Source: a virus
Direction: 5' to 3' (one strand)
IMG/VR virus record: IMGVR_UViG_3300009128_001426
Location: 1 to 32,247 of that record
DNA length: 32,247 bases
Positions within the stretch are counted from its first letter, which is position 1. The number at the start of each line of letters is the position of its first letter. The notes beneath the pieces were generated by a model that worked only from the letters and a program-made list of their open reading frames with translations, did no database searches and was not told the DNA's origin. Positions 641 through 28,687 of the stretch are shown in pieces. Made by a program: the position numbers and the translations under genes.

Positions 641-2206
641 TCAGGGAAGGGCGACCGCCACCTGTTTGGCATCGCCCTCGGTCTTGTCAATGTCCACGGC
701 CTCGTTGCAGATGGCCTGGACCGCAGGGGAAAGGCTCCCCCCGTTGACGGTGAGCCCGTAGACCTTCAGGCCTTCGTCAGCCTTCAGGGCTTCAAGGTCT
801 TCCATCACATCGGAAGGCAGCTTCTCGGCATGCCCGTCGGTCACCAGCACCAGGTCCGCGCGCTTGTCGCGGATGCTGGCAGGCAGGTTTCCGAGGGCCA
901 GCCGGAAGGCCGGGGCCAACTGCGTTCCACCCGAAGGACCCCGAGAAGCGATGGCCAGGGCCACCTTGCTGATATCGCCGATGGGCCGGGGGCTGCCGAC
1001 CGATCCGCTGGTGCGCCCCATGACCGGCAGCTCATACCCCTTGCCGTCAGCTGCGAGGTGGTGGACCGCAGTGATCCCGCCGTTGAACCCGATCACGGTG
1101 ACTGCTCTTTTCTCCTTCGCGCCGATCCCGACCGTAGCGATCCCTACCGCGCGGGCCCAGTCGTTGGGCTCTCCGATCATGGAGTAGCTTTCGTCCAGCA
1201 GCACCACGATGGGGCCCCTGCCCTGGGGCTCGCTGCCTTCCAACCGGTACTGGACCGCCTGGCGCTCCACGATGTCCCGAAGGGCCAGCAAGCGGAGCTT
1301 GGGGTGGCGCAGCCGAGCCAGGGAGCTGGGAAGCATCCGCCCGAGGTCCGCCCCGCGCTCGATATCCACCACCTCTTCCCTGGCGTTGACGTTCTTGACC
1401 TTCTTGCGCTGATCGGCGATCCGGCGAAGCCTGCCGGCCAGCTCCAAGCGCTTGCGCAGCGTGGGGTCGTTCTTCAGCTTCTCGGCCAGCTGCATGCGCT
1501 CGGGGTTGGGCTGGTCCGCAGCCGGAGGGGCCGCTTCCATCCCAGGGGCGAGCCCCGCGAGGGCTTCCTTGCCTTCGGCGGTCTCGGTGGTCGCGTTGCG
1601 CACCGCAGCCCGGAGGGCGGCCCGCATCTTGTCGGAGGCGGTGATCTTGGAGCTGCCCTTGCCGGGACCCTGGCCTTGGCCGTCCCCATCGCCTTCACCC
1701 TCGCCGTCTTCGGACTCTTCGCGCTCCTGCTCTTCCAGCAGCTCCGGCAGCTTGTCACCTACGGCCTTCAAGATGCCCTTGGCTGCGATGGCGCTGAAGT
1801 CGGGATCGCCCTGCACGGAAGCGCGCAGCTCTTCCCATTCGGGCAGCTCGTCCAGGATCGCATGAGCGGCTGGGGCCCATGGGGTCTCGGGGTCCAGCTG
1901 CTCGGGGTCCAGGGTTTCCGGGGCCCCATAAAGGCGCTCGAACACCTCGGTTCCGAAGGCGTGCGCCTGGTCGGCAGCTTCTTCGGTCCAAGCTTCCACC
2001 TGCTCGTTCGTCGCAGGGGGCGCGCCCTTCTCGGGCTCCAGCTTGCTGGGCTCGTGATTGTAGAGGGTTTCCCCGATCCGCTCCTGCTGGGCTTCCAGAG
2101 GAGGGCTGACCTGCAGCCTGGAGTCGTAGAGATAGGCCCCCCAGCGGCTGGTGTCGTATGCCAGCTGCCGGTGGGATTCGGTCTTGGCGGCGTGGTGGGC
2201 GCGCAT
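641..2206 (-). CDS. von Willebrand factor A domain protein, ViaA/CoxE-like
   Basis: A 521-residue VWA protein. The C-terminal domain (about 330-521) has a complete metal-ion-dependent adhesion site: DESYS at 338-342, Thr428 in GGT, and Asp457 in VTDG. An acidic, Gly-rich linker lies at about 160-186, and the N-terminal half is helical. VWA proteins with this layout (ViaA, CoxE, CobT-like) act with MoxR AAA+ ATPases, delivering or remodelling metal-bound targets. A RavA-type MoxR ATPase lies about 0.5 kb upstream in the next transcription unit, so a ViaA-like role is inferred. I chose the ATG at 2206 because it forms a TGATG junction with the preceding stop; an in-frame ATG at 2218 would overlap that gene further. 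E. coli ViaA is of similar size. The target of the phage version is unknown. Confidence 0.88.
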   Translation of the reverse strand: MRAHHAAKTESHRQLAYDTSRWGAYLYDSRLQVSPPLEAQQERIGETLYNHEPSKLEPEKGAPPATNEQVEAWTEEAADQAHAFGTEVFERLYGAPETLDPEQLDPETPWAPAAHAILDELPEWEELRASVQGDPDFSAIAAKGILKAVGDKLPELLEEQEREESEDGEGEGDGDGQGQGPGKGSSKITASDKMRAALRAAVRNATTETAEGKEALAGLAPGMEAAPPAADQPNPERMQLAEKLKNDPTLRKRLELAGRLRRIADQRKKVKNVNAREEVVDIERGADLGRMLPSSLARLRHPKLRLLALRDIVERQAVQYRLEGSEPQGRGPIVVLLDESYSMIGEPNDWARAVGIATVGIGAKEKRAVTVIGFNGGITAVHHLAADGKGYELPVMGRTSGSVGSPRPIGDISKVALAIASRGPSGGTQLAPAFRLALGNLPASIRDKRADLVLVTDGHAEKLPSDVMEDLEALKADEGLKVYGLTVNGGSLSPAVQAICNEAVDIDKTEGDAKQVAVALP

Positions 2207-2397
2207 CAGGCCACCCACTCGATCAGGTCATCGCCGTTGATCTCGACCTTGTCCATATCGAACAGAGTGTCAACGGCCTTCATGGCGTCCCGTTCGTTGA
2301 GCCCCGACCGGTGAATCAGCTCGGTCAGGTCGCCCCACTCGATGGGGGAGGCGATCTTGATGATGGCGGCGGTCATTGAGAGAGCGGCGGCTTCCAT
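2206..2397 (-). CDS. small protein, possible winged-helix fold (63 aa)
   Basis: A 63-residue protein. The start ATG follows AAGGAAGGAG in the repeated leader. An upstream in-frame ATG at 2445 would translate that leader as NHKEGA and is rejected. The sequence looks like a compact helix-turn-helix: a helix around TAAIIKIA, a second around WGDLTELIHRSG, a recognition-like helix NERDAMKAVDTLFDMD, then a short beta strand. This resembles small winged-helix proteins, but no family can be named. The stop overlaps the VWA start by one base, so the two are translationally coupled. Confidence 0.7.
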   Translation of the reverse strand: MEAAALSMTAAIIKIASPIEWGDLTELIHRSGLNERDAMKAVDTLFDMDKVEINGDDLIEWVA

Positions 2398-2449
2398 CTT
2401 GCTGGCTCCTTCCTTGTGGTTCTTGTCATCGTGGTTGATGCTCATTTGC

Positions 2450-2587
2450 CTACCTGAAGAGCGGACCGGATGCATCTACGAGGCGGTAGCTGGTGTGCCT
2501 GCTCGCGTGGCGTGCGGCGATGGCCTTGCTGTCGCTGCTGAAAATCGTTTTGCCAGTAAGTGAGTTGAAAACCTGGTAGCGGCGCAT
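2450..2587 (-). CDS. hypothetical 45-aa protein, first gene of unit L5
   Basis: A 45-residue basic protein with no recognised family. The ATG at 2587 is preceded by AAGGAAGGAG at proper spacing. A longer reading from 2635 would begin upstream of the predicted transcription start, since the -10 box lies at 2627-2632, so it cannot be right. It is the first gene after promoter 2627-2655. The gap to the next gene (2398-2449) holds only its repeated leader. Confidence 0.6.
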   Translation of the reverse strand: MRRYQVFNSLTGKTIFSSDSKAIAARHASRHTSYRLVDASGPLFR

Positions 2588-2626
2588 GTTCTTGGCTCCT
2601 TCCTTGTGGTTCCTTTCCATGATCAC

Positions 2627-2655
2627 AATATACACCCATAAGGGTTAAAGGGCAA
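2627..2655 (-). promoter_or_regulatory. sigma70-type promoter of unit L5 with palindromic operator
   Basis: Read on the minus strand: -35 TTGCCC, a 17-bp spacer, -10 TATATT. The spacer holds the dyad ACCC-ATAA-GGGT (2634-2645). The same arrangement occurs at 4563, 6107 and 7028. TTTCC directly precedes the -35, and the sequence CATGGAAAGG near the expected start site is also shared. Confidence 0.85.
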
Positions 2656-2675
2656 GGAAACAGGCAAAGAAAGCT

Positions 2676-2701
2676 AAAAAAGATGGGGCCCCGAAGGGCC
2701 C
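2676..2701 (-). terminator. intrinsic terminator ending unit L4 (after the RavA-like gene)
   Basis: On the minus strand GGGCCC, loop TTCG, GGGCCC, then CCATC and six Ts. A stable UUCG-type tetraloop hairpin with a T run lies 8 nt after the ATPase stop codon. It sits about 20 bp upstream of the next promoter's -35, a spacing repeated at the other unit boundaries. Confidence 0.9.
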
Positions 2702-2709
2702 TTCTCTCT

Positions 2710-3840
2710 CTACATATCGCCCAGCAGGTGCCGGGAAGCGGCCATGGCCAGTTCGCGCTGAAGCCCCTGGACCTTCTCCGCGATCTCCCCGATCTCGGGG
2801 TCGCCGGAATGGAGGTTCGCCAGGCTGCGCGCTTCGCGGGCCATGTCCCGCAAGCTGTGGTTCGCTTGGGCCAGAACTCCGGCGTTCCGCGCGGAGCTGT
2901 CGGCCATGTCCAGGTTCCCCAGCAGCTCCGTGGCCGCGTCCTGGATGCGGAGGGCCTTCTGCAGGTCGGGGTTGACCTTGGAGGCGATGGCCCCATGGAT
3001 GGCCGGGCGCTGCTCGGGGTCATCCCAGAGGGCATGCGCGAGGATCATCAGGTCGCGATGGGTCGCAGCTGCGCGCCCCTCGATCACCGCATGGGCTCTG
3101 ACCAGCCGGATGCACTTGCGCCAGCGCCGGTCCGAAGCCTCGATCCCGTGTTCCTGTTCCAGCTGCGCCTTCAGGTCCAGGACCGTGTCCAGGACCGAGT
3201 CCGGCAATTCCACCTGTTCGACCAGCGCGCGGAGCGCGGAGAGGTCCCCGGCTTCCAGCTTGCTGCGGACGGTGGGCTCGGCGGTCCCGCCCAGCAGGGT
3301 GCGCAGGCTGGACCGGCTGCGGATGGGCCCCACCCAGTGGCGTAGGACGAACCGATCGTAGAGCGCCTGCAGCGCGGTATCCTGGGGCAGCTCGTTCGAG
3401 GCGCCAACGGCCAGCTCCAAGGGGATGGGGATCCGCTTGCCGCCATCGTCGAACGCGCGCTCGTTCAGGGCGGTCAGCAGCGCGTTCAGGATGCTGCTGT
3501 TGGCCTTGAAGATCTCGTCCAGGAAGGTGAACTGCGCGCTGGGTAGGTAGCCAGCGGTCACCCTGCGGTATTCATCATTTTCGAGGCCCTTCAGGGAGAT
3601 GGGCCCGAAGACCTCTTCGGGTACGCTGAAGCGGGTCATCAGGACCGAGAAGCAGCTGCCTGCGAACGCGCCGGAGACAGCGTTCACCAGGGCGCTCTTG
3701 GCGGTTCCCGGAGGGCCCAGCAGTAGCACATGCTCGCCCGCGATCAGGGCGGTCAGGATGCTGCGGATCTCGTCCCTGCGCTCGTAGAAGGCGCCGTTCA
3801 GTTCGGATTCCAGGGTGCGGATACGGTCGGTGGGGTTCAT
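2710..3840 (-). CDS. RavA-like MoxR-family AAA+ ATPase
   Basis: A 376-residue MoxR AAA+ ATPase. Walker A is GPPGTAKS (42-49), Walker B FTFLDE (104-109), the sensor-1 segment is GASNELP (about 147-152), and the arginine-finger segment LYDRF includes Arg163. Signature stretches MTRFSVPEEVFGP (68-80) and SDRRWRKCIRL (237-247) closely match what I recall of E. coli RavA, placing it in the RavA subgroup. MoxR ATPases are cytoplasmic chaperone-like hexamers that work with VWA partners; a VWA gene lies in the next unit. The start at 3840 follows CAAGGAGCAAGACC; an in-frame ATG at 3891 lies inside the previous gene and lacks this site. RavA's usual C-terminal LARA/triple-helix parts are largely missing: E. 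coli RavA is about 500 residues. Last gene of unit L4. Confidence 0.92.
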   Translation of the reverse strand: MNPTDRIRTLESELNGAFYERRDEIRSILTALIAGEHVLLLGPPGTAKSALVNAVSGAFAGSCFSVLMTRFSVPEEVFGPISLKGLENDEYRRVTAGYLPSAQFTFLDEIFKANSSILNALLTALNERAFDDGGKRIPIPLELAVGASNELPQDTALQALYDRFVLRHWVGPIRSRSSLRTLLGGTAEPTVRSKLEAGDLSALRALVEQVELPDSVLDTVLDLKAQLEQEHGIEASDRRWRKCIRLVRAHAVIEGRAAATHRDLMILAHALWDDPEQRPAIHGAIASKVNPDLQKALRIQDAATELLGNLDMADSSARNAGVLAQANHSLRDMAREARSLANLHSGDPEIGEIAEKVQGLQRELAMAASRHLLGDM

Positions 3841-3862: not shown

Positions 3863-4195
3863 CTAGTTGAAGGCTTCGCGCTGGGCGGCATCGTCCAGCA
3901 GGTCCGCGTAGCGATCCCAGAGGCGTTCCATCCAGTTTTCTTCCAGGACCGAGCCCCCGGTGCTCCCGGATGAGAAATTGCCGTCCTCGTTCAGGGTGAT
4001 CGCCATGGAAAGCTCCTCGCCGTTCCTGCGAACGCTGATCGAGTAGGTCGCACGGGTAGCGGTCACCATGTACCGGAGGTGGCAGCCATGGGTCTCGGCC
4101 CAGTCCAGCAGATGGAAGGTCCAGCCGTCGCTGCCCCGGGGGGCGATCTGAAAAGCGGCCTTGGCGAGAGTGTCGCGGGCGGTGAGGGCGTTCAT
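3863..4195 (-). CDS. hypothetical protein (110 aa)
   Basis: Unknown function. It has 110 residues, with a helical start, a central region likely to be beta-rich (TRATYSISVRRNGEELSMAITL) and an acidic helical C-terminus. The start at 4195 has GGGAG in the repeated GAACCAC leader. The upstream in-frame ATG at 4342 would overlap the preceding gene and is rejected. The stop TAG opens the leader of the RavA-like gene (TAGAACCACAGC), so stop and ribosome site are packed together. It sits between the 106-aa gene and the RavA-like ATPase, so a role with that ATPase (adaptor or substrate) is possible but unsupported. Confidence 0.75.
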   Translation of the reverse strand: MNALTARDTLAKAAFQIAPRGSDGWTFHLLDWAETHGCHLRYMVTATRATYSISVRRNGEELSMAITLNEDGNFSSGSTGGSVLEENWMERLWDRYADLLDDAAQREAFN

Positions 4196-4217: not shown

Positions 4218-4538
4218 CTACGCGGCAGCCAGCTCGTCAGCTTCGACCTGGTCCCAGGTGCGGAAGCTGACCTTCGCGGCCTTGCGAGGGGTGGAAAGGT
4301 CGATCTTGGAAGCAGTGGCGTGCTCCCAGATCCCGAGGTCATTCTGCACCTCGAAGCAGCCCGTGCGGTAGGAGCCCTTCGGCATCCCGGCGGCCCGCGC
4401 GGCGGCCAGCGCGTCTTCCAGGTTCATGTTCGCGGCCAGCTCCAGCGTGATGCTGAAGGCAGGGAGGCTCCGGGGGTCAACCCGGTTGCTCTCGGCGCGG
4501 AAGAAGAAATCCCAGGAGATGTTCTTGGCTTCGTTCAT
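4218..4538 (-). CDS. hypothetical protein (106 aa), first gene of unit L4
   Basis: Unknown function; 106 residues, mixed alpha/beta. The start ATG at 4538 follows GGAAAGAGACC. The earlier in-frame ATG at 4571 lies upstream of the predicted transcription start because the -10 box is at 4563-4568, so it is excluded. It is the first cistron behind promoter 4563-4591 and is followed by the 110-aa protein and the RavA-like ATPase. The stop TAG is part of the next leader (GCGTAGAACCACCACAGGG). Confidence 0.75.
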   Translation of the reverse strand: MNEAKNISWDFFFRAESNRVDPRSLPAFSITLELAANMNLEDALAAARAAGMPKGSYRTGCFEVQNDLGIWEHATASKIDLSTPRKAAKVSFRTWDQVEADELAAA

Positions 4539-4562: not shown

Positions 4563-4591
4563 AATATACACCCGTAGGGGTTAGAGTGCAA
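4563..4591 (-). promoter_or_regulatory. sigma70-type promoter of unit L4 with palindromic operator
   Basis: Minus strand: -35 TTGCAC, 17-bp spacer, -10 TATATT. The dyad ACCC-GTAG-GGGT (4570-4581) sits in the spacer at the same position as in the other three promoters. TTTCC precedes the -35. Confidence 0.87.
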
Positions 4592-4611: not shown

Positions 4612-4642
4612 AAAAAAAAAGCCCCATCTCGGCAATAGGGCT
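4612..4642 (-). terminator. intrinsic terminator ending unit L3
   Basis: Minus strand: AGCCCTAT, 7-nt loop, ATGGGGCT (8 bp, one T-G pair), followed by a run of nine Ts. It lies 31 nt after the stop of the 460-aa gene and just upstream of promoter 4563-4591. Confidence 0.92.
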
Positions 4643-4673
4643 TCGTTCGATTTCGGCGCTCGTCAGGCGTTGG

Positions 4674-6056
4674 TCAGGCGGCTGCGCAAGCCTTCTCGGG
4701 CTCGACCATCGCAGCTGCCAGCACATCGGCTTCCAGATCCTTCCGGCTGTACCCCTTCCCGAAGTTCCGGGGCTCGTCGCCGGTCAGGCGCTGGAACTCG
4801 TCCCGCAGATCCGCGGCGCTCATGGCCTTGACGCTCTTCGCGTAGACCTGCAGGTCGGGAGCCCCGGAAGGCTCGTTGGCCGAGTCCTCGGGGTTCGAGT
4901 CCTGGGGCTCGGCCAGCTCCAGCTGCGCGAAGCGCAAGATCGAGGTTTCGCCTTTCCTGGCGATCAGGGTGGCCTGCAGCCCCATCTCCCGCAGGGTGGC
5001 CCGGGGGGAATAGTTGTCCGTGTTCCAGTACGCGGGCTTGGTGATCGCGGTCTTGGACCAGCCGGCTTCGGCCAGCTGCGCGCCGGTCACCTCGTCGCCG
5101 TACTGCTCGCGCAGATCCTCGATCTTGCTCTTCAGCTTCTCGCTGGGGGTCCGCGCGGAGCTTCCGCCGTTCGTCGGCTTGGGGCCCTGCCCGTCCAGGA
5201 TGAACCGCGCTCGGTCTTCGGCACTGCCGATGGAGCCCAGCAGGGAGTCCAGCTGGATGTTCAGGCAGTCCGCGTAGAGCCGGGCCTGGTCGCGCAGCTC
5301 GCGGAACTCGGCGAAGGTGCGATCGGAGATCTTGCTGGAGGTGCGCTTGGTGGCACTCTCCCAGCCGTCCAATCGCTGCTTGATGTCCTTCAGCTTGCCG
5401 ACCAGGCTGCCCTGGGCGGAAGCGCCGATGGAGTCCCGGCTGTCCCCGGTGTCGGCCACATGGGAGACGTGGAACTGGGATTTCCCGAGCTGCCGGACCA
5501 CGCGGGCGATCCGGTCCAACTCGTCCATGCCCTGGGCGGGGACGAACACGATGCCGCCGGAGCGTCGCAGGTTGAAGGCTCCCAGCTGCGCCAGCGGGGC
5601 CTTGATCAGGTTGGGGCGAATCCACTCGTGGTTCAGGTACTGGAAGCGCCAGGAGATGCACTCATGCACTTCGTCGGCTTCGATCGTGTTGCCCTGTTCG
5701 ATGCGGATGGGGGTTCCGCCCTGCATGTCCGAGTAGACGATCCGGTCCACCTGCTCCCAGGCGACCTTCTTGGGGCCGATGCGGACGCGCTTCAGGATCC
5801 CGACGATCATGGTGTCGGAGTCGCTGAAGACCACATCAGCCTTGAAGCGTTCGGCGTTGCCAGCGCCCTTGCGCCAGCTGTTGGCCCCCTTGCGGATGGC
5901 CTGCTGCGGCTTGATGTCGGGGACCTTGATGTCCCACTTCTCGAAGCCGAGGATCCCGCGCAGCTCCGCGGGGCTGATCTTGCTGTCGAGCAGGTCCCAC
6001 CATGCGAGGGCTCCGATACCCTGGGCGAGGTCGTGTGCGATGGTCTGGTCGGTCAT
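4674..6056 (-). CDS. phage protein of unknown function (460 aa), possibly DUF6744-like
   Basis: A 460-residue protein and the only gene of unit L3. I tentatively liken the N-terminal two thirds to the large phage family DUF6744, from memory only; no catalytic motif is evident. The mid region (about 215-300) is helical and may be coiled coil. The C-terminus (about 410-450) has a motif of the form LxxxFxRLTGxEP...YSRxxL. Almost the same motif ends the unrelated 366-aa protein at 22341-23441 and resembles DUF2924-type sequences. The start ATG has AAGGAG seven nt upstream. The unit has its own operator-bearing promoter and a strong terminator, suggesting independent, high expression. Confidence 0.85.
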   Translation of the reverse strand: MTDQTIAHDLAQGIGALAWWDLLDSKISPAELRGILGFEKWDIKVPDIKPQQAIRKGANSWRKGAGNAERFKADVVFSDSDTMIVGILKRVRIGPKKVAWEQVDRIVYSDMQGGTPIRIEQGNTIEADEVHECISWRFQYLNHEWIRPNLIKAPLAQLGAFNLRRSGGIVFVPAQGMDELDRIARVVRQLGKSQFHVSHVADTGDSRDSIGASAQGSLVGKLKDIKQRLDGWESATKRTSSKISDRTFAEFRELRDQARLYADCLNIQLDSLLGSIGSAEDRARFILDGQGPKPTNGGSSARTPSEKLKSKIEDLREQYGDEVTGAQLAEAGWSKTAITKPAYWNTDNYSPRATLREMGLQATLIARKGETSILRFAQLELAEPQDSNPEDSANEPSGAPDLQVYAKSVKAMSAADLRDEFQRLTGDEPRNFGKGYSRKDLEADVLAAAMVEPEKACAAA

Positions 6057-6106: not shown

Positions 6107-6135
6107 AATATACCCCTTTACGGGGTAACCGGCAA
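6107..6135 (-). promoter_or_regulatory. sigma70-type promoter of unit L3 with palindromic operator
   Basis: Minus strand: -35 TTGCCG, 17-bp spacer, -10 TATATT. The dyad here is longer, ACCCC-GTAAA-GGGGT on the minus strand (6112-6126). The -35 box abuts the stop codon of the upstream gene, and no separate T-run terminator is seen before it. Confidence 0.82.
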
Positions 6136-11479: not shown

Positions 11480-13183
11480 TCATTTTGTTTCTACCCCCAC
11501 CATCCCGATCAACCGGCATCGGAACGCCCGACCGTTCTTCAGCAGCCGCCAGCTCGGCTTGCGAAACCAGCGTCCAGGACCGTAGCTGGCCAGAGGGCAG
11601 ACGTGACCGCCTCGCCAGCCCTTTGAACGCACGATCCCGATGATCTGCGCCCCAAGCGATTCCAGCCTCGCGCGTACATCGGGATCCGCATACCAGCCCT
11701 GGGGATGCAACCGAATCGCCGATAGCTCCAGATAGACATGAACCCCGCGATCGCCGCTGCGATCCATGATGACAGCCCCGGAAAGACCGTCTTCGAGCGC
11801 AGCCAGATCGCCAACCTCCCGAAGAGCCTCCTCCAGGGCGCGATCGGCATACCCCCCATCCTCAACGTCCCCCATGGGTGGGGCGATCTTGTCCAGGTCG
11901 AAAATCAACCATTCCTGAGCTACCGCTTTCCATCGACACGGGATCCGCTGCATGCGATCCTGCAAAGGCAGATCCCTCCAGCCCACGGGGGCCACCCTGG
12001 ACCCCGTAATCATCAGCATGGGCATCCAGCGCTCGGGGTGCAGCTCTTTCAACTCTTCTTGCGTGAACATGGACGCCGCTCGCTCCTTCTCCTCCGCTTT
12101 TGCGCGAGCCGCAGGCCCCCTGGACATACGATCGGCGTTCCGCAGCACCTCTGGAAGACTTCCCTTGAGCCGATGGCCGTCCGTTCTGTAGGTCTCCGCG
12201 CAGTTGGTGCCCTTCACAGGCTTCAAGGATGCCCCGATCACCTCCCCGCGGGCCCATGAGGAAGCGATCCCCTTGTTCAATGAGGGGAACCGGGGCGCAG
12301 CCCCGGTATCAGCTTCGCACGCGGTCTCGCTAGTATGTGCTGAGTACTCATTGTCTACCTTGGGAGCGCCTTTCACGATCCCCAGATCTTCGAAGGTTTC
12401 ACGCAGTTCGATGACCCATCCCCTGCGATCTCGGACGAACCTGACGGCTGCCGCCTTCTCGCAGGATGCGCACCAAGCGGACCCGTAGCGACCCCCGTTC
12501 TTGTCCTTCTTGTCCCGAACCGCGATCATGGACGGATTGCGGTCTTCGTGATCCTCGCAGATGCACCGCACCTTGGTCGACACCCCTGGCATGGGCACCC
12601 GACCCAGCCGTCGGATCCACTCGAAGCGGGGAGGGGGCTCTTTCCAGTCCATCGTCTTCTTGGCGGCATCCCAGCCGATCGCCAACAGCTGCAGCTGGCC
12701 GCGAGTCAGGATCATGTGCCGGCCCCAGCGTTCGTGCTTTTGGAGCTTGCGCAGCTTCGCTCCCATGGCTGCGGCCACCTTGGCGGGCACCTCCTGCCAA
12801 CCGATCAGGTCGAGCACCGCATGCCAGGCCGTCAAGCACCCCCGATATCCGGGCGCCCCCTCGATCTCTTCCACGTACTTGGCGCAGCGTTCCAGATAGT
12901 AGAGGTCTTCATGGCCTTTCAGCTTCCGGGCTTTTCCGGCCCCGATCTCCCCCAGAACCCAGAGAGTGGCCGCCCCTCCCTTGGCGAACGCGCTGTCGCC
13001 GCGGGCCAGCTCTTCGCACGCGGCAGCCACCTCGGCGCGCCGCAGCGCGGGACTCGGAACCAGTTGCTGGCGTTGGATGATCTTGGCGATCCGCTTTTTG
13101 ACCGATTCCCGGTCTTCCAGGTAATCGCTCGGATCGAAGATCCTGCCCTGCACGGGGCCGGTCGCCTGCGCGCCCCCGATCAT
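11480..13183 (-). CDS. putative archaeo-eukaryotic-type primase (AEP/PrimPol-like) with zinc finger
   Basis: A 567-residue protein, first gene of the leftward arm. The central part has a zinc-finger-like cluster: Cys207, Cys209, His212, then CASC (238-241), similar in spirit to CHC2 primase fingers. The C-terminal region carries hallmarks of archaeo-eukaryotic primases: IFDLDK with the metal-binding pair Asp429/Asp431, and SGDRGVHVY (476-484), which matches the SGxxGxHV motif of PriS/LigD-PolDom/PrimPol enzymes. The third acidic motif is not obvious to me. The N-terminal 200 residues are helical and unrecognised. A second, TOPRIM-type primase lies on the rightward arm, so priming may be split by time or substrate. 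The start ATG at 13183 follows GGAGCTGCGCCC. Confidence 0.72.
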   Translation of the reverse strand: MIGGAQATGPVQGRIFDPSDYLEDRESVKKRIAKIIQRQQLVPSPALRRAEVAAACEELARGDSAFAKGGAATLWVLGEIGAGKARKLKGHEDLYYLERCAKYVEEIEGAPGYRGCLTAWHAVLDLIGWQEVPAKVAAAMGAKLRKLQKHERWGRHMILTRGQLQLLAIGWDAAKKTMDWKEPPPRFEWIRRLGRVPMPGVSTKVRCICEDHEDRNPSMIAVRDKKDKNGGRYGSAWCASCEKAAAVRFVRDRRGWVIELRETFEDLGIVKGAPKVDNEYSAHTSETACEADTGAAPRFPSLNKGIASSWARGEVIGASLKPVKGTNCAETYRTDGHRLKGSLPEVLRNADRMSRGPAARAKAEEKERAASMFTQEELKELHPERWMPMLMITGSRVAPVGWRDLPLQDRMQRIPCRWKAVAQEWLIFDLDKIAPPMGDVEDGGYADRALEEALREVGDLAALEDGLSGAVIMDRSGDRGVHVYLELSAIRLHPQGWYADPDVRARLESLGAQIIGIVRSKGWRGGHVCPLASYGPGRWFRKPSWRLLKNGRAFRCRLIGMVGVETK

Positions 13184-13201
13184 GGGCGCAGCTCCGCTGG
13201 A

Positions 13202-13213
13202 ACCCCTACGGGT
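13202..13213. promoter_or_regulatory. operator-like palindrome, fifth copy
   Basis: ACCC-CTAC-GGGT, the same dyad found in the spacers of the four leftward promoters, here 18 bp from the start codon of the primase-like gene and 16 bp upstream of the -35 of the rightward promoter. It is in the opposite orientation to the other four and has no good -35/-10 pair of its own. Confidence 0.65.
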
Positions 13214-13222
13214 TTATTCGCT

Positions 13223-14555: not shown

Positions 14556-16033
14556 CCAACCTCGCCCCCTGGCTCAATCAGGAGCGAGTAGGCTCCCGAG
14601 TGGACGCGATCGTGGATTCCGTGATCACTCTGCTGCATCCGGTTCCCGTTCGGTTCGCTGGGGCCCTTCGAAGGATGCTGACCCGCCCCAACCCCGAGAG
14701 AAACCGCAGGGGCTACACGGACCACCTTCCCGCGGATGTCTGCTATCTGCGAAGGTCTACCAGAGGGCTGATAGCTCCCAGGGGGATCGCCTCCAAGCTG
14801 CCGGGGCTGGCCCGAAAGCACGGGGTTGAGCTGCGCTGGGATTCCCGCGTGGTCTGCGCGGAGACCCCCAAACCCCTGGACGATGAACAGTTGGGGTTCG
14901 ATCTGCGTCTGTACCAGCAGACCGCCAGGGATCGGATGGTTCGAGCCCGACAGGGCTACATCGTGGTTCCCCCAGGTGGCGGCAAGACCGTGATCGGGTG
15001 TGCGGCCATGGCCCGAGTGGGCGAAGCCGCTCTGGTCTTGGTGCACACGACCGACCTGGCAGACCAATGGGAGGAGACCGCGTCCAGGATGGGGATGTCA
15101 GTTCGGTTGGTCGGAGGGAAGGGGGGGCCGGTGCCTTCCAGCTTCAACCCGGAGCCTGGCAGCGTTACCGTGGCCATGGCCCAAGCGATCACGGCTGCTG
15201 GTCCGAGGGGGCGTAGCTTCGTGGGGCTGTTTGGGGCCGTGGTCAGCGATGAGTGCCACCATGAAAGCGCGCCGACGAGATTGCGGACCCTGGATTCCTG
15301 TCCGGCTCGCTATCGCTGGGGGGTGACCGCCACCCCGGATCGAGCTGACGGCATGGGGTTCGTGCTGCCCTGGCAGATCGGCCCCGAGCTGTACCGGATG
15401 CCTGTCAAGAAACTGGTGGAGGGGGGCTTTCTTGTGGTCCCCAGGATCGTGCCCGTGGAAACGGGCTGGATTCCGGGCCAGCAGTTCTATGACGAAGACG
15501 GGTCTCTGCTGTATGCAGCCGCCCTTCGATCCCTCTGTGAGGATCCGCTACGCACCGCGGGCCTCGCCAAAGTGGTGGTTGCCGCGCATCGCGCAGGACG
15601 TAGAACCCTATGGCTGTCCCCCAGGGTGGATGCGGCAGGCCGATGGGCTGGAATCTTGCGGGATCATGGAGTCCCTTGCGCGGCGGTGACCGGCAAGGGA
15701 GCCAAGGGCCAGCGCCGATTGCGGATCCGGCAGCTGCGAGAGGGGAGCTTGACCACCTTGGTAGCCACCAAGCTTGCGGACGAAGGGCTGGACGTTCGAG
15801 CCTTGGACTGTCTGATCACGGCTCCGGGGAGAGCTTCGGCCCCGACCACCCAGAGAGCCGGTCGGGTCATGCGCCCCGAAGGCCGAGCCCCGATCGTGTT
15901 CGATCCCGTGGACGGGGGCCCGTTTCGCAGAGCTTGGAGCGCCCGAGCCAGGGCCTACCGATCCGAGCTGGGAGTCACCCCGGAAGGAAGCGTGGACTAC
16001 GATGGCGCGGTTCGACTGCTTCGCGGGTACTGA
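14552..16033 (+). CDS. SF2 DEAD/DEAH-type helicase (XPB/UvsW-like)
   Basis: A 493-residue ATP-dependent superfamily 2 helicase. Motif I is VPPGGGKT (139-146), motif II DECHH (233-237), motif III GVTATP (257-262) and motif VI QRAGRVMR (434-441). The Q-like segment LRLYQQTARDRM (118-129) precedes motif I. The layout and length are close to phage UvsW/XPB-like and ResIII-type helicases, which remodel forked or recombination DNA. The first 110 residues are a separate N-terminal domain that I do not recognise. GTG start, overlapping the previous stop by GTGA, with GGGGGAGGG as ribosome site. It sits at the head of the recombination block: helicase, nuclease, Sak4-like ATPase, SSB-like protein. Confidence 0.93.
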   Translation: MTNLAPWLNQERVGSRVDAIVDSVITLLHPVPVRFAGALRRMLTRPNPERNRRGYTDHLPADVCYLRRSTRGLIAPRGIASKLPGLARKHGVELRWDSRVVCAETPKPLDDEQLGFDLRLYQQTARDRMVRARQGYIVVPPGGGKTVIGCAAMARVGEAALVLVHTTDLADQWEETASRMGMSVRLVGGKGGPVPSSFNPEPGSVTVAMAQAITAAGPRGRSFVGLFGAVVSDECHHESAPTRLRTLDSCPARYRWGVTATPDRADGMGFVLPWQIGPELYRMPVKKLVEGGFLVVPRIVPVETGWIPGQQFYDEDGSLLYAAALRSLCEDPLRTAGLAKVVVAAHRAGRRTLWLSPRVDAAGRWAGILRDHGVPCAAVTGKGAKGQRRLRIRQLREGSLTTLVATKLADEGLDVRALDCLITAPGRASAPTTQRAGRVMRPEGRAPIVFDPVDGGPFRRAWSARARAYRSELGVTPEGSVDYDGAVRLLRGY

Positions 16034-16044
16034 TAGCCCTTGCG

Positions 16045-16065
16045 GGGGTACAACAGGGCAGGAGG
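16045..16065 (+). repeat. recurrent leader motif (full copy)
   Basis: GGGGTACAAC followed by AGGGCAGGAGG, ending 5 nt before the nuclease ATG at 16071. Partial copies at 17485-17500 (GGGGTACAACAGGGCA), 18524-18532 (GGGTAGAAC) and 22281-22290 (GGGGTACAAC) precede other rightward genes at greater distance. Confidence 0.75.
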
Positions 16066-16070
16066 TAGAA

Positions 16071-17483
16071 ATGCAACAACAGCTTGAAATGGCCCATCCC
16101 GTCGTCCTGCGAAGCGGGCAGGAAGGAGAGATCCTGGGGCTCGACACCGACAAGGCGATCCTGTTCAGCAACAGCGAGCGCAGCGCGATGGCCTGCCCGT
16201 CCAAGTGGTGGTTTCGGTACGGCCAGCACCTGAAGTCCCCGCCGACCGCCCCCATGTCCCTCGGGAAGGCTTGGCATTCCTGTATGGAGGACATGGCGCG
16301 GTACTGGGTGGCCAACGGGGGGGACGATTACCCGCGAAGCGGGTTTTGGGCTTGCGCGTGGTGCGACGAAGGCGAATCGTCTTCTTGCAAGCATTGCCAT
16401 GGGGATCGGAACGGACCTGTTCCCAGGATCGTGGCTCGCTGGATTTCGGACCAGGCTGCCATGGACTCTCCGTTGGTCGAGCAGGAAGAGATCGACGAGA
16501 TGGCCAAGAAGCTTTCTCGTATGTGCGAAGGGTACGTCCAGCGCTACGGCACGGCTTCCCCTGGCAGCTACGATATCGTCGCCGTGGAGGCGAACGTGGC
16601 CAGGCCCGTGCTTTCCCCGATCACGGGCAAACCGTATCGGCCCGCGGTGCCCATCGTGGACACCCCCACCGGCCCGCGGTTCGCGCGCTCCGAGGATTCT
16701 GAAGAGGCGATCAAGTGGGTCCGCTGGCCGTGGTATCAGCTGGGCATCTTGGACGCGATCGGCAGGGACCGAAGCAGTGGGCGCCTGATGGTGATCGAAC
16801 GCAAGAGCAGCGGCCAGCCTTCTTCCCTGGTTGGCAACCTGACCGTGGACCCCCAGACCACGGGGTATACCTGGCTGCTGGACGGCGCGGCCCGAGCCGG
16901 AGTGTTCGGTGATGCCGTCGCCACCATGCTGCGTCCCGTCATGGGCTGGATGTACCAGATCGCTGTGACCCATCTGCAGCAGGATCCCAAGCGCCTCAAG
17001 AAGGGGGGTTTATCGAAGGCCAAGAATGCCAGGGTTCCCAGCTGGAGGTTCCGGGCTGCGGTCAGGCAGGACGGTTTGGACGAGGCCGATTATGCCGACT
17101 ACATCCACGATCTGACCCAACGGGTGGACCCCAGCCTCTATATTGACGAGTTCGGGATGGTAGGCCCCACCGACCTGGCGCGCTACGCCACCGAGATCCA
17201 TGCAGTCGCCCAACGGCTCGCGCAAGCTCGGAGGGACGCCTACCGCGCGAAGGATAGCAGCTCCGTGATCCAGAAGTTCCCGCGGGTTCCTGTCTGTACG
17301 GCTCCGGGGTCCAGCTGCGCCTATCGCGGGCTCTGCGTCAGTGACAGTCCCCAGGGGCGAAGCTCGTTCGAGCAGGGCGAAGGCGCCTTGTGGTGGGCGG
17401 CCCGCAAGGTTGAGACACCGGCTGTCCAGCCCGAGGACGACAGCGGCGATTACCCCGATTTCGACCCCGATCTGGGGTTCTAG
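16071..17483 (+). CDS. PD-(D/E)XK exonuclease with Fe-S cluster, Cas4/AddB-like
   Basis: A 470-residue RecB-family nuclease. Catalytic residues visible: His69 after GxxxH, Asp228 in GILDAIG, Glu243 and Lys245 in VIERKSS, and the QxxxY motif Gln262-Tyr266. Four Fe-S cysteines are arranged as in Cas4 and AddB: Cys42 (MACPSKWWFRYG) at the N-terminus and Cys409, Cys416, Cys422 (CTAPGSSCAYRGLC) at the C-terminus. An extra CAWC...CKHC zinc-like knuckle (95-109) is inserted between. Such phage nucleases process DNA ends for recombination; the neighbouring Sak4-like ATPase and SSB-like gene support that. The start at 16071 follows AGGAGGTAGAA; an earlier in-frame ATG at 16002 is within the helicase. 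No CRISPR array or cas1/cas2 is present. Confidence 0.92.
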   Translation: MQQQLEMAHPVVLRSGQEGEILGLDTDKAILFSNSERSAMACPSKWWFRYGQHLKSPPTAPMSLGKAWHSCMEDMARYWVANGGDDYPRSGFWACAWCDEGESSSCKHCHGDRNGPVPRIVARWISDQAAMDSPLVEQEEIDEMAKKLSRMCEGYVQRYGTASPGSYDIVAVEANVARPVLSPITGKPYRPAVPIVDTPTGPRFARSEDSEEAIKWVRWPWYQLGILDAIGRDRSSGRLMVIERKSSGQPSSLVGNLTVDPQTTGYTWLLDGAARAGVFGDAVATMLRPVMGWMYQIAVTHLQQDPKRLKKGGLSKAKNARVPSWRFRAAVRQDGLDEADYADYIHDLTQRVDPSLYIDEFGMVGPTDLARYATEIHAVAQRLAQARRDAYRAKDSSSVIQKFPRVPVCTAPGSSCAYRGLCVSDSPQGRSSFEQGEGALWWAARKVETPAVQPEDDSGDYPDFDPDLGF

Positions 17484-17524
17484 AGGGGTACAACAGGGCA
17501 ACCGAAAACCAAGGAGGAACGAGC

Positions 17525-18523
17525 ATGTTCGACCTGACACCGATCGGTCAGCAGGACCCGGGTGACATCTTCATCAAGCTGCTGGTCATGGGCAACACCG
17601 GAGCCGGCAAGACCCGGTTCGGGGCTCGCAACGACAAGGGGGATACCCAGGTGGTGGTCCTGCTGTGCGAGCCCAACGGCAAGGCCACGATCGCGGAAAT
17701 CAATCCACGCGCCGTGGTCGTGGATGTGAAGAAGGAGAGTGCCAAGCTGGTCAAGGATCTGAAGGCTGCAGACAAGGCCATCCCTCTGGTTCCAGACCTG
17801 GAAATAATACGCCGGTTCATGCGGTTCGCCATCTCGGGAGCGCTCGTCAGCAGCTTCCCGGAGGGCACTCGGATCCGCGTGGTGGCCGATTCCCTGACCG
17901 AGATGCAGCGCCTGCTGAAGGACGAAATCCAGAAGCAGAACGAGATCCGGGCCAAGCGCGAAGAGGACCCCGAGAAGCGGCGCAAGATCCTGGAATTCAG
18001 CATCAGGGACTGGGGTGTTTTGACTGAGCGAACCCGCATGCTGCTCCGCACGTTCAGGGATCTGCCCTGCGACGTGGTGGGGATCACGCTCGCCGAAGAG
18101 GACAAGGACGAAGAAGCGGGGGTCAGGTACGTCAAGCCCCAGTTCGAGGGCCGCAAGATGCCCAACGAGGTGGGCGGCTACTTCTCGGGCATCGGCTACA
18201 GCTTTCGGCGTGAAGTGCAGAAAGAGGGCAAGGACAAGAGCACGATCTACAGGGTGCTCTGGGAGGGGCCGGGCCGGTACAAAACCAAGGCCTGCTGCCA
18301 GCTGACAGGCGTGACCAAGCCGGATCCCGATCTGGCCTTCGGGCTGGTGCGCGCGTCCTGGATGGCGGGCATGCTTTCGGACGGCGACGTGGTGATCCCT
18401 GCGGAGGGCGAAGCGCCCCCCAAGGATGAGCCCAAGGACGAAGAGCCGGAGAACGGCGAACCCGATCTGCCGGCCGACAACGAAAACGGCAAGCCCAAAG
18501 CCGGCGCGTCCTGGGGCGCGTAA
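17525..18523 (+). CDS. Sak4-like RecA-fold ATPase (single-strand annealing/recombination)
   Basis: A 332-residue P-loop ATPase. Walker A is GNTGAGKT (23-30), and the Walker B strand RIRVVADS ends with Asp122-Ser123. The core RecA-like fold covers about 15-270. The C-terminal 50 residues are acidic and disordered (repeats of PKDE, EEPENGEPD). Phage proteins of this size and motif set are called Sak4 or phage nucleotide-binding proteins and promote single-strand annealing, usually with an SSB partner. The next gene has an SSB-type tail, which fits. The ribosome site is AAGGAGGAACGAGC; the leader also holds GGGGTACAAC at 17485. Confidence 0.88.
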   Translation: MFDLTPIGQQDPGDIFIKLLVMGNTGAGKTRFGARNDKGDTQVVVLLCEPNGKATIAEINPRAVVVDVKKESAKLVKDLKAADKAIPLVPDLEIIRRFMRFAISGALVSSFPEGTRIRVVADSLTEMQRLLKDEIQKQNEIRAKREEDPEKRRKILEFSIRDWGVLTERTRMLLRTFRDLPCDVVGITLAEEDKDEEAGVRYVKPQFEGRKMPNEVGGYFSGIGYSFRREVQKEGKDKSTIYRVLWEGPGRYKTKACCQLTGVTKPDPDLAFGLVRASWMAGMLSDGDVVIPAEGEAPPKDEPKDEEPENGEPDLPADNENGKPKAGASWGA

Positions 18524-18559
18524 GGGTAGAACTGGACAACAACAAGAAAGGAGCGAGTC

Positions 18560-19225
18560 ATGGGCCGTATGTTCGATCCCACTTCCGAAGAGCACGACAA
18601 GCCGCGGTTTCCGATGTGCCGCGAGGGGAAGAAGCTGGCCGGCTTGGTCGGCTGCGATCCCTACAACCTCGAAGGGTACGACCCGGAGAACGAGGTGGAG
18701 GGGCGACCGAAGCCCTACTACCTGCTGCACTATGTGATCATCCGCGACCTGGAACAGCCAGCCGGGATGGAGCAGGAAGGGCCGGATATCGGCCTGGTGG
18801 TGCTGGTCAACGTCTACGTGTCGAACAAGGCCATCAGCCGGCTGGTGGGCGCCTGCAAGGGGGTTCAGCGCGTAAAGCCGTTCGATCCGCTCGACCCCGC
18901 GAAGATGGCCGAGGTCATGGGCAGCAAGCCCGTCGTTCTCGACATCATCCACGAGACCTATCGCGACAAGAACGGCCGGCCGCGCACGAAGGCGACCATC
19001 CCTTGGGACGGCTGGGAACCGTATTCCGGCAAGGTCCTGATGGAAGCCTGGGGTCCCATCCTGGAGACGGGTGAGGCGAAGTATGCCGAGTTCAAGCAGC
19101 GCGAGGCCGATCGGGCCGGCGGTGGCTCCAGCTCCGGGTCCGGCGGAAGCTCCGGGTCCAGCAGCGGGGGCAGCGTGGATGACAGCGACCTGAGCGACCT
19201 TCCGTCCGACGACATGCCCTTTTAG
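18560..19225 (+). CDS. SSB-like single-stranded DNA-binding protein (acidic tail)
   Basis: A 221-residue protein ending in a Ser/Gly-rich linker (about 182-205) and a canonical acidic SSB tip, DLSDLPSDDMPF. That tip recruits replication and repair partners in bacterial and phage SSBs. The N-terminal 170 residues are not a typical OB-fold by eye and resemble the DUF669-type phage SSBs, a guess. It immediately follows the Sak4-like ATPase with a 36-nt gap carrying GGGTAGAAC and AAAGGAG, matching known phage Sak4-SSB gene pairs. Role: coat single strands during replication and annealing. Confidence 0.85.
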   Translation: MGRMFDPTSEEHDKPRFPMCREGKKLAGLVGCDPYNLEGYDPENEVEGRPKPYYLLHYVIIRDLEQPAGMEQEGPDIGLVVLVNVYVSNKAISRLVGACKGVQRVKPFDPLDPAKMAEVMGSKPVVLDIIHETYRDKNGRPRTKATIPWDGWEPYSGKVLMEAWGPILETGEAKYAEFKQREADRAGGGSSSGSGGSSGSSSGGSVDDSDLSDLPSDDMPF

Positions 19226-19240
19226 CATATAGGGCTTTCT

Positions 19241-20203
19241 ATGCGCAATATCGCGCCATCAGACCGAGTGATCCGCGCAGCCTTCTGGAAGGACGCGCGG
19301 ATCGTCAAGCTTGAGCCGGTCGCGCGGCTGTCCTTCCTTTGGCTGGTGGCATGCGCGGACGGCGACGGGATCGCCCCATACAGCTGGGAATCCATGCTGA
19401 TGGACGGTTGCGGGCTTTCGCTCGACCCTGCCAGCTTCCTGGGAGGAGCGGTCCTTTCGGAGCTTGAAGAGGCCGGCCTTGTGGTCGGCTACCAGTCGTC
19501 CCTGACTGCGACGGCCGACGAGCCCGCCAGGTGGGTCTGGGTTCCCATGTTGGGAAAACATCAGCCTTCCCGAGGGGAGTTCAGGCCGACCAGAAACGGG
19601 GATCGACCCCCACCTCCGCAGCAGTTGGTCCGCGACCACATGGCCAAGCGCCTGGGAAGAGATCCCACAGAGGCCGAGTGCCGAGCCATCTCTCCGCGCA
19701 GCTTCGGGTTGACGCGCCAGGCATCGACCGTGGCCACGTCCGAGGATACCCAGCTGGTTTGGGAAGCGTGGAGGTCCAGGCAGCAACGGCCGAACGCCTG
19801 CAAGCTGTCTCTCCAGATCCGGTCTCTGATCGCGAACGCTCTGAAGCAGGCCGACGCGGCCACCCTTGCGGAGTTCATCGCATGGGCGCACGAATCGAGC
19901 GCTCCGGGGCCCAGATTCTGGCAGGGGCATAACAGGCAAAGACGCCGATACCTGGGGCTGACCACCCTGCTGCAGGGTGCGAAGCTCCAAGAGCGGCTCC
20001 AAGCGATGGCCCGCGACAAGGCCAAGAGCAGCGAGGAAGAGGAGGGCAGCTGTGGTGGCATCATGGCGCAACGCGGCATCAGAAAACGTGCGGCGCAACG
20101 CCTCGCGCGGTGGTCGCAAACCCAGCCGGACCAAGGTGGAGGAGTACCTTCGTCGGAAGGGTCCGATCAAGGTGGTCAGCGAAGCGGGGGGACCCCAAGC
20201 TAA
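19241..20203 (+). CDS. phage replisome-organizer / helicase-loader-like protein
   Basis: A 320-residue protein. The first 120 residues (DRVIRAAFWKDARIVKLEPVARLSFLWLVACADGDGIAPYSW) fit the winged-helix N-terminal domain of phage replication-initiation proteins. A Pro-rich linker follows at about 125, and then a helical domain. It lies directly before the primase-helicase, the usual position of a loader. The ribosome site is weak (ATAGGGCTTTCT). The C-terminal 50 residues are low-complexity (SQTQPDQGGGVPSSEGSDQGG) and lie where the next gene is already translated in another frame, an unusually long overlap of about 150 nt. Part of this tail may have little function. Confidence 0.78.
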   Translation: MRNIAPSDRVIRAAFWKDARIVKLEPVARLSFLWLVACADGDGIAPYSWESMLMDGCGLSLDPASFLGGAVLSELEEAGLVVGYQSSLTATADEPARWVWVPMLGKHQPSRGEFRPTRNGDRPPPPQQLVRDHMAKRLGRDPTEAECRAISPRSFGLTRQASTVATSEDTQLVWEAWRSRQQRPNACKLSLQIRSLIANALKQADAATLAEFIAWAHESSAPGPRFWQGHNRQRRRYLGLTTLLQGAKLQERLQAMARDKAKSSEEEEGSCGGIMAQRGIRKRAAQRLARWSQTQPDQGGGVPSSEGSDQGGQRSGGTPS

Positions 20204-22052
20204 GGGGGCCTGCCCCAAGTGCGGCAAGCCCGGATATCTGCATGTATCGCTCGCGCCGGCCAGCTGCGGAGCTTGGCGGTGCGTCAGCACCAAGTGCGGA
20301 GCGTCCGGCGGGTTCAAGGCCCTCCGAGAAGCCTATGGGGATGTCACCCAGGGAAGTTCTACGGGCAGGCCCGCAGGGGTGCCGGCGATCAAGCGGGCGG
20401 ATCAGCTGGTCAACGGGCTGCGCGCGGCGCGAGGAAAGGGCGATCAACCTGACAAGCCTGACCCCCTTCCGGGAACCGCCCCCGAAGGGGCGTCCCCTTT
20501 TCTGCTCTGGAAAACCAGGGACAAGGAATGCCACGAAGCTTTGCGGTCTCCCGAGGGCAAGGTGGTCCTGGACTACCTGCACGCTCGCAAGTTTACCGAC
20601 GAGACGATCGATTTCTGGAAGCTCGGGGCCACCTTCTTGCCCTACGCGGGCTCGCGGGTTCCGTTCCTGACGATCCCGATCCCGGACGAGGGGGGCGAAC
20701 TGACCAACATGAAGTTCCGGTCCCTGCCGGTGGATTGCCCCGCCTGTCGAGGAGCCGGCTGCTCCCAGAAGTGGTGCGACGGCGGCAAGATCAAAAAGAT
20801 GTTCGTGCGCTCACCGGGCAGGCCCAGCACCCTGTTCGGAGCGCACCTGCTGCCGGACGATCTGGATAGTGGGATCATCGTGACCGAAGGGGAGCTGGAT
20901 GTCATAGCTTTCTGGCAGTACGGCCTGAATCGGGGGGTGGTCTCCAGCGTCAAGGGGGCGACCGGAGCTTGGGAGGAGTCCTGGCTGGACATGCTGGAGC
21001 CCTATGCCCACTTCACCCTGGCGGTAGACACGGATGACGCAGGCGAGAAGGGCGCGGTCAAGCTTGCGGACCAGCTGGGCAAGGATCGGTGCTCTCGGGC
21101 GAAGTTGCCCAGAAAGGACGCTGCGGACTGCCAGCAGGCGGAAATCCCGTTTGAGACCGTGGAGAAGGCCCTGGAGCGGGCAAGCCCCATGCTGGGGGTT
21201 CAGATTGTCAGCGCCGAGTCCTACGCGGACGCCATAGAGCAGCTGATAGCCAGGCCGGACGAGCTGATCGGAATTCCTACGGGCAGCGGCAAGATGGACG
21301 AATGCGTAGGGGGTTGGCGCCCGGAGTTGGTGATCGTGACCGGGGATACTGGTCATGGCAAGACCACATGGGCGCTATGGGCTCTTCGCGAAGCCGCCTT
21401 GAAGGGTCATAACGTCCTGGTGACCAGCTTCGAAAACCGGCCCATCGGCGCGGTCATCAAGCTGTTGCGTATGGAGCTGGGAGGGGATTTCACCGACAGC
21501 AAGTTCACCCCACAAGATCGCAGGATGGCCCTTGACAGGATCTCCGAGCACATGCTGTTCGTGGATCACGCTGGGCACCTTCCGGCCGCAGAGCTGATCG
21601 CGACCGTCCGATACGCGAAGCGTCGCCGAGGGGTTCGCTTGGTCCTGGTGGACCATGCCGGGTTCGTCCTGCCAGCGGATACGGACGACGAGCGCCATGG
21701 GCTGGAAGCTTTGGCCCGAGCCCTGACCACCGTGGCCGCCCAGGACGATCTGACCATCTTCCTGATCGCCCATCCCAACCGGATGCACCGGGCCCAGCAA
21801 CGCAGGGTCCAACTGGGGGATCTCAAAGGGGCCAGCGGCCTTGAACAGGACTGCGCCACGGGCCTGGTCATCGCGCGAAAAAAGCAGAGCAAGGGAGATG
21901 CGCGCCTGCGAACTGTGGTCTACGCGGACAAGGTCAGATCCGAGTTCGGCATGGGCGGCAGCTACGCGACCCTCTATTACGACTACGAGGCGAATCGGTA
22001 CGCGGATCGCCATGAGGATCTCCCCGCGGCCCGCTACGTGGACCCGTCATGA
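20052..22052 (+). CDS. bifunctional TOPRIM primase and DnaB-type helicase (T7 gp4/Twinkle-like)
   Basis: A protein of about 666 residues. From the N-terminus: a zinc-binding domain (Cys54, Cys57, Cys72, Cys77, Cys82), an extra CPAC....C....C knuckle at 229-242, a TOPRIM domain with Glu279 (TEGELD) and the DTDDAG segment (326-331), and a RecA-type helicase with Walker A GDTGHGKT (431-438), Walker B VLVDHAG and LIAHPNR. This is the T7 gp4/Twinkle plan: one hexameric protein primes and unwinds at the fork. The start is uncertain. I chose GTG 20052 because GGAGGG lies 5 nt before it; GTG 20136 would shorten the overlap with the loader gene, and an ATG at 19977 overlaps more. The stop overlaps the next ATG (ATGA). 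Confidence 0.9.
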   Translation: MVASWRNAASENVRRNASRGGRKPSRTKVEEYLRRKGPIKVVSEAGGPQAKGACPKCGKPGYLHVSLAPASCGAWRCVSTKCGASGGFKALREAYGDVTQGSSTGRPAGVPAIKRADQLVNGLRAARGKGDQPDKPDPLPGTAPEGASPFLLWKTRDKECHEALRSPEGKVVLDYLHARKFTDETIDFWKLGATFLPYAGSRVPFLTIPIPDEGGELTNMKFRSLPVDCPACRGAGCSQKWCDGGKIKKMFVRSPGRPSTLFGAHLLPDDLDSGIIVTEGELDVIAFWQYGLNRGVVSSVKGATGAWEESWLDMLEPYAHFTLAVDTDDAGEKGAVKLADQLGKDRCSRAKLPRKDAADCQQAEIPFETVEKALERASPMLGVQIVSAESYADAIEQLIARPDELIGIPTGSGKMDECVGGWRPELVIVTGDTGHGKTTWALWALREAALKGHNVLVTSFENRPIGAVIKLLRMELGGDFTDSKFTPQDRRMALDRISEHMLFVDHAGHLPAAELIATVRYAKRRRGVRLVLVDHAGFVLPADTDDERHGLEALARALTTVAAQDDLTIFLIAHPNRMHRAQQRRVQLGDLKGASGLEQDCATGLVIARKKQSKGDARLRTVVYADKVRSEFGMGGSYATLYYDYEANRYADRHEDLPAARYVDPS

Positions 22053-22297: not shown

Positions 22298-22315
22298 GGG
22301 CCCTAATTCGGGCCT
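22281..22315 (+). other. overlapping stem-loops at the end of the winged-helix gene
   Basis: GGGGT-ACA-ACCCC (22281-22293), CCCC-ATA-GGGG (22290-22300) and GGCCC-TAATTC-GGGCC (22299-22314) are mutually exclusive or stacked hairpins. No T run follows, so this is not an intrinsic terminator. It may set mRNA stability between the replication genes and the next gene. Confidence 0.5.
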
Positions 22316-22340
22316 GAACGGATCTGAAAGGAGCGACAGA

Positions 22341-23441: not shown

Positions 23442-23444
23442 CCG

Positions 23445-23720: not shown

Positions 23721-23724
23721 CGAG

Positions 23725-26057: not shown

Positions 26058-26068
26058 AGAGGAACCCC

Positions 26069-26356: not shown

Positions 26357-26359
26357 AGC

Positions 26360-27997: not shown

Positions 27998-28003
27998 TGA
28001 GTC

Positions 28004-28686: not shown

Positions 28687-28687
28687 T

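Follow-up and report, generated by a model that had tools for sequence, protein, structure and literature searches.

The viral DNA studied here (IMG/VR record IMGVR_UViG_3300009128_001426, positions 1 to 32,247; this whole stretch of 32,247 nt is called the window below) encodes on its minus strand a MoxR AAA+ ATPase, a VWA protein and a protein of the family DUF6744. Their genes belong to three transcription units with the same promoter and operator architecture, and the three are linked in other viruses and in bacteria. We infer that the three proteins act together. Our confidence is evenly divided on the fuller reading, i.e. that the window encodes a three-part AAA+ remodelling module in which the VWA protein would grip a client and act with DUF6744, likely early and on the replication or recombination machinery. 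The three proteins are:

641-2206, minus strand: VWA protein, 521 aa, ViaA-like, with a helical N-terminal half, a C-terminal VWA domain and an intact metal ion-dependent adhesion site (MIDAS); assigned from profiles, AlphaFold and motifs
2710-3840, minus strand: MoxR AAA+ ATPase of the short RavA-like type, 376 aa, with AAA_lid_8 and lacking LARA and the RavA C-terminal domain; assigned from profiles, tree and motifs
4674-6056, minus strand: DUF6744 protein, 460 aa; assigned from Pfam, a hidden Markov model (HMM) and predicted structure

All motifs of the ATPase are present: Walker A GPPGTAKS (42-49), Walker B FLDE (106-109), sensor 1 GASNE (146), YDRF (161) and SDRRW (236). It matched the bpMoxR model with E = 6.6e-55 (185.8 bits against a cut-off of 27), and AAA_5 and AAA_lid_8 were both above cut-off (AAA_lid_8, E = 2.4e-20); judged by its core motifs and domain model, it is a member of the MoxR AAA+ family. 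The gene starts at an ATG with a good ribosome site, and a longer frame to 3891 is also possible. The RavA model (NCBIfam NF010054) aligned to the AAA+ part only (E = 1.5e-73), the score of 248.6 bits missing the family cut-off of 681, and the solved RavA structure was matched by sequence with E = 4.9e-63. LARA and the RavA C-terminal domain were not found by a domain scan that detected both in the E. coli control (L010). In a tree of ATPases with 92 rows, whose deep branches are only moderately supported, LARA-bearing true RavA formed a separate group (Shimodaira-Hasegawa-like approximate likelihood ratio test, SH-aLRT, 87), and the window ATPase was placed with moderate support not with bacterial RavA but among short forms from phages, Myxococcota and other bacteria (SH-aLRT 82), its nearest partner being that of the phage L026 (SH-aLRT 91). 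A contig from a metagenome-assembled genome (MAG) labelled Klebsiella pneumoniae (L086) has a short-type ATPase, accompanied by a VWA protein, and groups with Deltaproteobacteria and Binatota forms; this contig is probably mis-binned.

The MIDAS of the VWA protein is complete, with DESYS at 338-342, GGT at 426-428 and TDG at 456-458 (D338, S340, S342, T428 and D457). In the AlphaFold model (mean predicted local distance difference test, pLDDT, 85.7), the protein has a VWA fold and its N-terminal half is helical. The ViaA model (NCBIfam NF008230) covered residues 238-382 only (E = 3.2e-14), and its 53 bits missed the family cut-off of 500. Several claims of the earlier note on this DNA are thus upheld, namely the intact metal site of the VWA protein and the loss from the ATPase of the C-terminal part of RavA that binds LdcI. 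The label of a RavA-type protein with all AAA+ motifs has to be narrowed: the motifs and a RavA-like AAA+ part are there, but the ATPase falls below the RavA cut-off and true RavA is grouped apart.

In IMG/VR, 53 loci were found by a profile scan, and after phage records were added and duplicates collapsed, 54 distinct viral contigs with the ATPase were obtained. A same-strand VWA relative was present in 53 of them (52 inside the fetched stretch, the 53rd across contig ends, L051/L064), within 2.5 kb of the ATPase in 51 and with a median gap of 47 bases; VWA relatives, in turn, nearly all adjoin such a MoxR ATPase. The two genes thus co-occur as a rule, the VWA protein belongs with MoxR-associated families, and the two genes are, as proposed, a genuine MoxR-VWA pair that resembles RavA/ViaA. 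Taking this pair as the complete unit, however, missed the third gene, DUF6744, which stands in the next unit behind the same promoter. DUF6744 was found in 40/54 contigs, on the same strand in 39 and within 2.5 kb in 37, and the trio occurs in several gene orders (DUF-ATPase-VWA in 23, ATPase-VWA-DUF in 7, ATPase-DUF-VWA in 6, plus others), hence its linkage has been re-made repeatedly. The Pfam model of DUF6744 alone matched in 35 of 50 whole records and in 0 of 14 control genomes, and a reverse search that started from DUF6744 alone found the ATPase adjoining in 5 of 7 loci. Moreover, the trio is carried by bacteria-assigned genomes, in contigs of Myxococcota, Bacillales, Desulfobacterales and Chloroflexota. 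Plasmids were also searched, and no DUF6744 match was found there. In viral contigs, neither the VWA nor the DUF6744 protein of the window had a close relative by single-sequence search, and alignments were needed to find relatives.

The window protein matched the DUF6744 Pfam model (PF20529) with 37.8 bits against a cut-off of 27 (E = 1.4e-9), and an HMM built from four other DUF6744 proteins, with that of the window left out, recovered it at E = 6.9e-21; among 7,975 open reading frames this HMM never matched twice in one locus. The conserved core spans about residues 11-290 (pLDDT about 90+) and ends in long helices; beyond it the predicted structure has a segment at 304-378 and a three-helix C-terminus at 402-459. 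The helix-strand-helix-hairpin of segment 304-378 is possibly a winged helix. The fold had no match in the PDB with E <= 0.001, and comparison of the sequence with solved structures returned chance-level helices only; in a fold search of viral models, four confident unnamed phage proteins were matched, one of them from the archaeal tailed virus HVTV-1; by its length this one corresponds to gene 25, and its sequence confirmed it as a DUF6744 protein. No catalytic-type residue is conserved across the family, whose strongest motif is GGxYFVP, and some members bear tails of a DNA-binding type: the DUF6744 of L070 carries a HARE-HTH domain, that of L026 a weak SAP match and that of L014 a lysine/alanine/proline-rich tail. 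Due to these two properties, DUF6744 is probably an adaptor or client and not an enzyme, and the tails suggest an adaptor able to touch DNA.

The three genes lie in three consecutive minus-strand units, i.e. the DUF6744 unit (6056-4674), the ATPase unit (4538-2710), with two small genes ahead of the ATPase, and the VWA unit (2587-12), in which the VWA gene is preceded by two small genes and followed by two further ones up to the window end. Each unit begins with a TTGC-N19-TATATT promoter, a sequence which was found four times in the window (at 2627, 4563, 6107 and 7028) against 0.00 expected. AACCC-N3/4-GGGT dyads lie in three of the promoter spacers, and a related dyad lies in the spacer ahead of DUF6744. 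Thus, the promoter and dyad sites confirm the adjacent units with the same operator that the earlier note described, and the arrangement extends to the DUF6744 unit; the two tiny genes between the pair are also present. A single repressor may control all three units. The elements and remaining genes of this region are:

2627-2655, minus strand: promoter TTGCCC-17-TATATT with operator dyad AACCCTTATGGGT in the spacer, driving the VWA unit
4563-4591, minus strand: promoter TTGCAC-17-TATATT with operator dyad AACCCCTACGGGT, driving the ATPase unit
6107-6135, minus strand: promoter TTGCCG-17-TATATT with a related but non-identical dyad ACCCCGTAAAGGGGT, driving DUF6744
2686-2701, minus strand: terminator-like stem directly 3′ of the ATPase gene
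4618-4644, minus strand: terminator-like stem 3′ of DUF6744
2206-2397, minus strand: small gene, 63 aa, between ATPase and VWA, translationally coupled to the VWA gene
2450-2587, minus strand: small gene, 45 aa, first in the VWA unit
3863-4195, minus strand: 110-aa gene in the ATPase unit
4218-4538, minus strand: 106-aa gene with its ATG at 4538, first in the ATPase unit

The ATG of the VWA gene overlaps the stop of the small gene before it. Terminator-like sites showed no enrichment over the region as a whole, and the four small genes (2206-2397, 2450-2587, 3863-4195 and 4218-4538) had no relatives in the fetched loci. An extra operator-like dyad, GAACCCCTACGGGTTTA, stands at 13200-13216 just upstream of the minus-strand gene 11480-13183 and is not accompanied by a TTGC/TATATT promoter.

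In MoxR-VWA pairs, the client is gripped at the metal site of the VWA protein and the ATPase ring drives remodelling (PMC7159879). In our model, the short RavA-like MoxR ATPase would be the ring motor, the ViaA-like VWA protein the co-chaperone which grips the client through its metal site, and DUF6744 a dedicated third partner. The acidic residue or peptide that the VWA protein may bind would belong to DUF6744 or to a complex held by it, and ATP hydrolysis by the ring would then alter the shape of the DUF6744-containing or DUF6744-tethered complex. More tentatively, the setting would be early infection and the phage replication/recombination nucleoprotein machinery. A replication or recombination target would account most economically for the neighbouring genes and the DNA-binding tails. 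The window trio faces a replication module with a superfamily-2 helicase, a PD-(D/E)XK exonuclease, a Sak4-like protein, a primase-helicase and a second helicase, followed by the terminase small subunit, and genes for Rad52 and a PD-(D/E)XK nuclease come after the trio in a Myxococcales MAG. The wider proposal, in which an undescribed DUF6744-MoxR-VWA machine is exchanged between tailed viruses and bacteria and remodels a replication/recombination nucleoprotein complex, with DUF6744 as a DNA-facing adaptor that has no solved fold relative, is possible but rather doubtful.

Several observations weigh against this reading of the trio as a remodelling module of the replication machinery. Exonuclease, Sak4, DnaB or PolA genes lie within 5 kb of the ATPase in 14/30 contigs and terminase or portal genes in 1/20, which speaks for a link to DNA, but the difference between replication and structural distances was not significant (Mann-Whitney p = 0.06), so that a replication module as universal neighbour of the trio proved only partly true, and large genomes have the trio at a great distance from replication and structural genes alike. 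Pfam finds nothing in the C-terminal part of the window DUF6744, where the DNA-binding reading follows from predicted secondary structure. Two of the seven loci found from DUF6744 do not contain the ATPase; of these, one is a fragment of 6 kb and the other belongs to a record of 151 kb in which no such ATPase occurs. In 14/54 contigs DUF6744 is absent, therefore the pair can work without it; 9-10 of these contigs form a clade whose pairs are linked to genes for RNA polymerase and reverse transcriptase. Among the three proteins, pairwise distances are correlated (rho 0.64-0.67; top of 999 permutations 0.37), which speaks for the trio as a module, but the comparison was made without a control gene and shared vertical descent can explain this correlation. 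Finally, HVTV-1 has its DUF6744 gene at a distance of about 15 kb from an AAA-VWA pair of a different kind.

As an alternative, the ATPase-VWA pair would be a virion-assembly chaperone which folds or remodels tail or head proteins, with DUF6744 as structural client or scaffold. The only experimental viral precedent comes from Acidianus two-tailed virus (ATV), where p618 is a major virion protein that binds the VWA protein p892 strongly, as well as several virion proteins, and where the pair is reported to act as a chaperone when the tails develop (PMC4124505); the statement in the earlier note that the role of a phage-borne pair is not known was in this respect incomplete. Virion assembly was also proposed for the MoxR-vWA pair of group 2.2 jumbo phages (PMC7824862), and the long helices at the end of the DUF6744 core fit such a role. 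However, both precedents differ in architecture: the ATV ATPase is in the virion, even the best tblastn match in ATV shares only about 25% identity with the window ATPase and DUF6744 is not reported there, while the jumbo-phage VWA is fused to an N-terminal metallopeptidase, which the domain scan did not find in the window VWA protein. Moreover, the window trio lies opposite a replication module where no capsid or tail genes were recognised, terminase or portal genes are rare near the ATPase, and repressor-type operators at the promoters suggest early or regulated expression. We therefore consider virion assembly unlikely. A conflict or defence module, i.e. a MoxR-VWA switch with a third component used against competing phages or host defence, is a little harder still to credit. 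Ternary MoxR-vWA conflict systems of multicellular bacteria are its precedent, they likewise combine MoxR, VWA and a third component, and the window ATPase scores with the bpMoxR model; the trio is carried on bacterial chromosomes, and in Paenibacillus (L100) it lies in an island flanked by SIR2-like, GmrSD_N and CHAT genes. However, the third component of those systems is VMAP, iSTAND, FtsH or a VWA-fused beta-propeller (PMC7159879) and that of the window is DUF6744; Pfam and PADLOC scans of the window trio found none of these partners, no effector domain and no PADLOC match, and the Myxococcales neighbours are recombination genes instead.

Very improbable, in our assessment, is a phage-borne RavA-ViaA which, like the E. 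coli pair, acts on the respiratory complexes or membrane lipids of the host; the earlier note had mentioned the link to respiration, lipids and aminoglycosides for the bacterial pair. Besides the model matches given above, the window pair shares with E. coli RavA-ViaA an ATPase with the same AAA+ core and lid (272 residues aligned at 43% identity), a VWA protein with MIDAS and a partly shared middle segment, and neighbouring genes. In E. coli, however, LARA of RavA binds LdcI and phosphatidylglycerol and the basic C-terminal helix of ViaA binds lipids (PMC9489729), and the window pair lacks LARA, the RavA C-terminal domain and this helix, the last 18 residues of its VWA protein having a net charge of -2 versus +6 in E. 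coli; the ViaA of Vibrio and Marinomonas is likewise without basic charge at the C-terminus. True RavA also separates in the tree, and the window pair has a DUF6744 partner. Since LARA and the basic helix are absent, effects on lipids, respiration and aminoglycosides are unsupported in this phage, and a RavA/ViaA function of this kind was rejected as unlikely. Campylobacter phage A11a (MG065691) was also rejected as an example of a phage RavA/ViaA: its RavA-ViaA genes (L010 7953-10918) match E. coli DNA with 100% identity, which probably reflects contamination of the record.

Viral MoxR-VWA pairs are already known from haloviruses (PMC7911831), Bacillus phage 0305phi8-36 (PMC2147016), the jumbo phages (PMC7824862) and ATV. 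In the haloviruses Hardycor1, HVTV-1 and HCTV-2, AAA and VWA genes are likewise adjacent or near, and HVTV-1 also encodes a DUF6744 protein (gene 25, E = 3e-19; L154 9815-10966), but its AAA and VWA proteins do not match our ATPase and VWA HMMs. Moorella phage MTATph1 has the full trio of DUF6744 (E = 5.6e-61), ATPase and VWA, which its record does not recognise, labelling the genes only as ATPase and hypothetical proteins; here, as in HVTV-1, DUF6744 is downstream of a ribonucleotide reductase gene. The literature searched on MoxR and VWA proteins in phages gave only pairs or single ATPases, and no paper found names DUF6744. Thus, the three-part form containing DUF6744 and its short RavA-like subgroup appear to be undescribed in this literature.

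Further observations concern the neighbours of the trio and the virus itself. The pair-only clade (L003, L005, L036, L037, L041, L043, L046, L047 and L048; ATPase-VWA without DUF6744) has as conserved neighbours a reverse transcriptase (RVT_1) and a giant gene in which the Rpb2 and Rpb1 domains of RNA polymerase are combined. In two unrelated phage records, the ATPase-VWA pair adjoins a gene for a DNA polymerase III beta-clamp (L011 2514-3791 and L012 4376-5785), and a small DUF4258 protein is encoded between DUF6744 and ATPase in the Paenibacillus island and a further one directly upstream of the L111 trio. INPHARED contained no near-identical phages, and two other IMG/VR contigs (L156 and L157) are 99.5% identical to window positions 14621-32049, thus the virus recurs in other metagenome records. 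Within the window, a similar pair of about 70 bases lies at 29795-29865 and 30005-30076 (crossed 96% matches versus L157).

MoxR-VWA pairs are common in prokaryotes and viruses, and the client is known for few of them. A third protein which accompanies the pair in distant phages and in bacteria is a natural first candidate for client or adaptor. Hence DUF6744, a family of unknown function, gains a concrete context, and the question of what viral MoxR-VWA pairs act on becomes one for simple binding and deletion tests.

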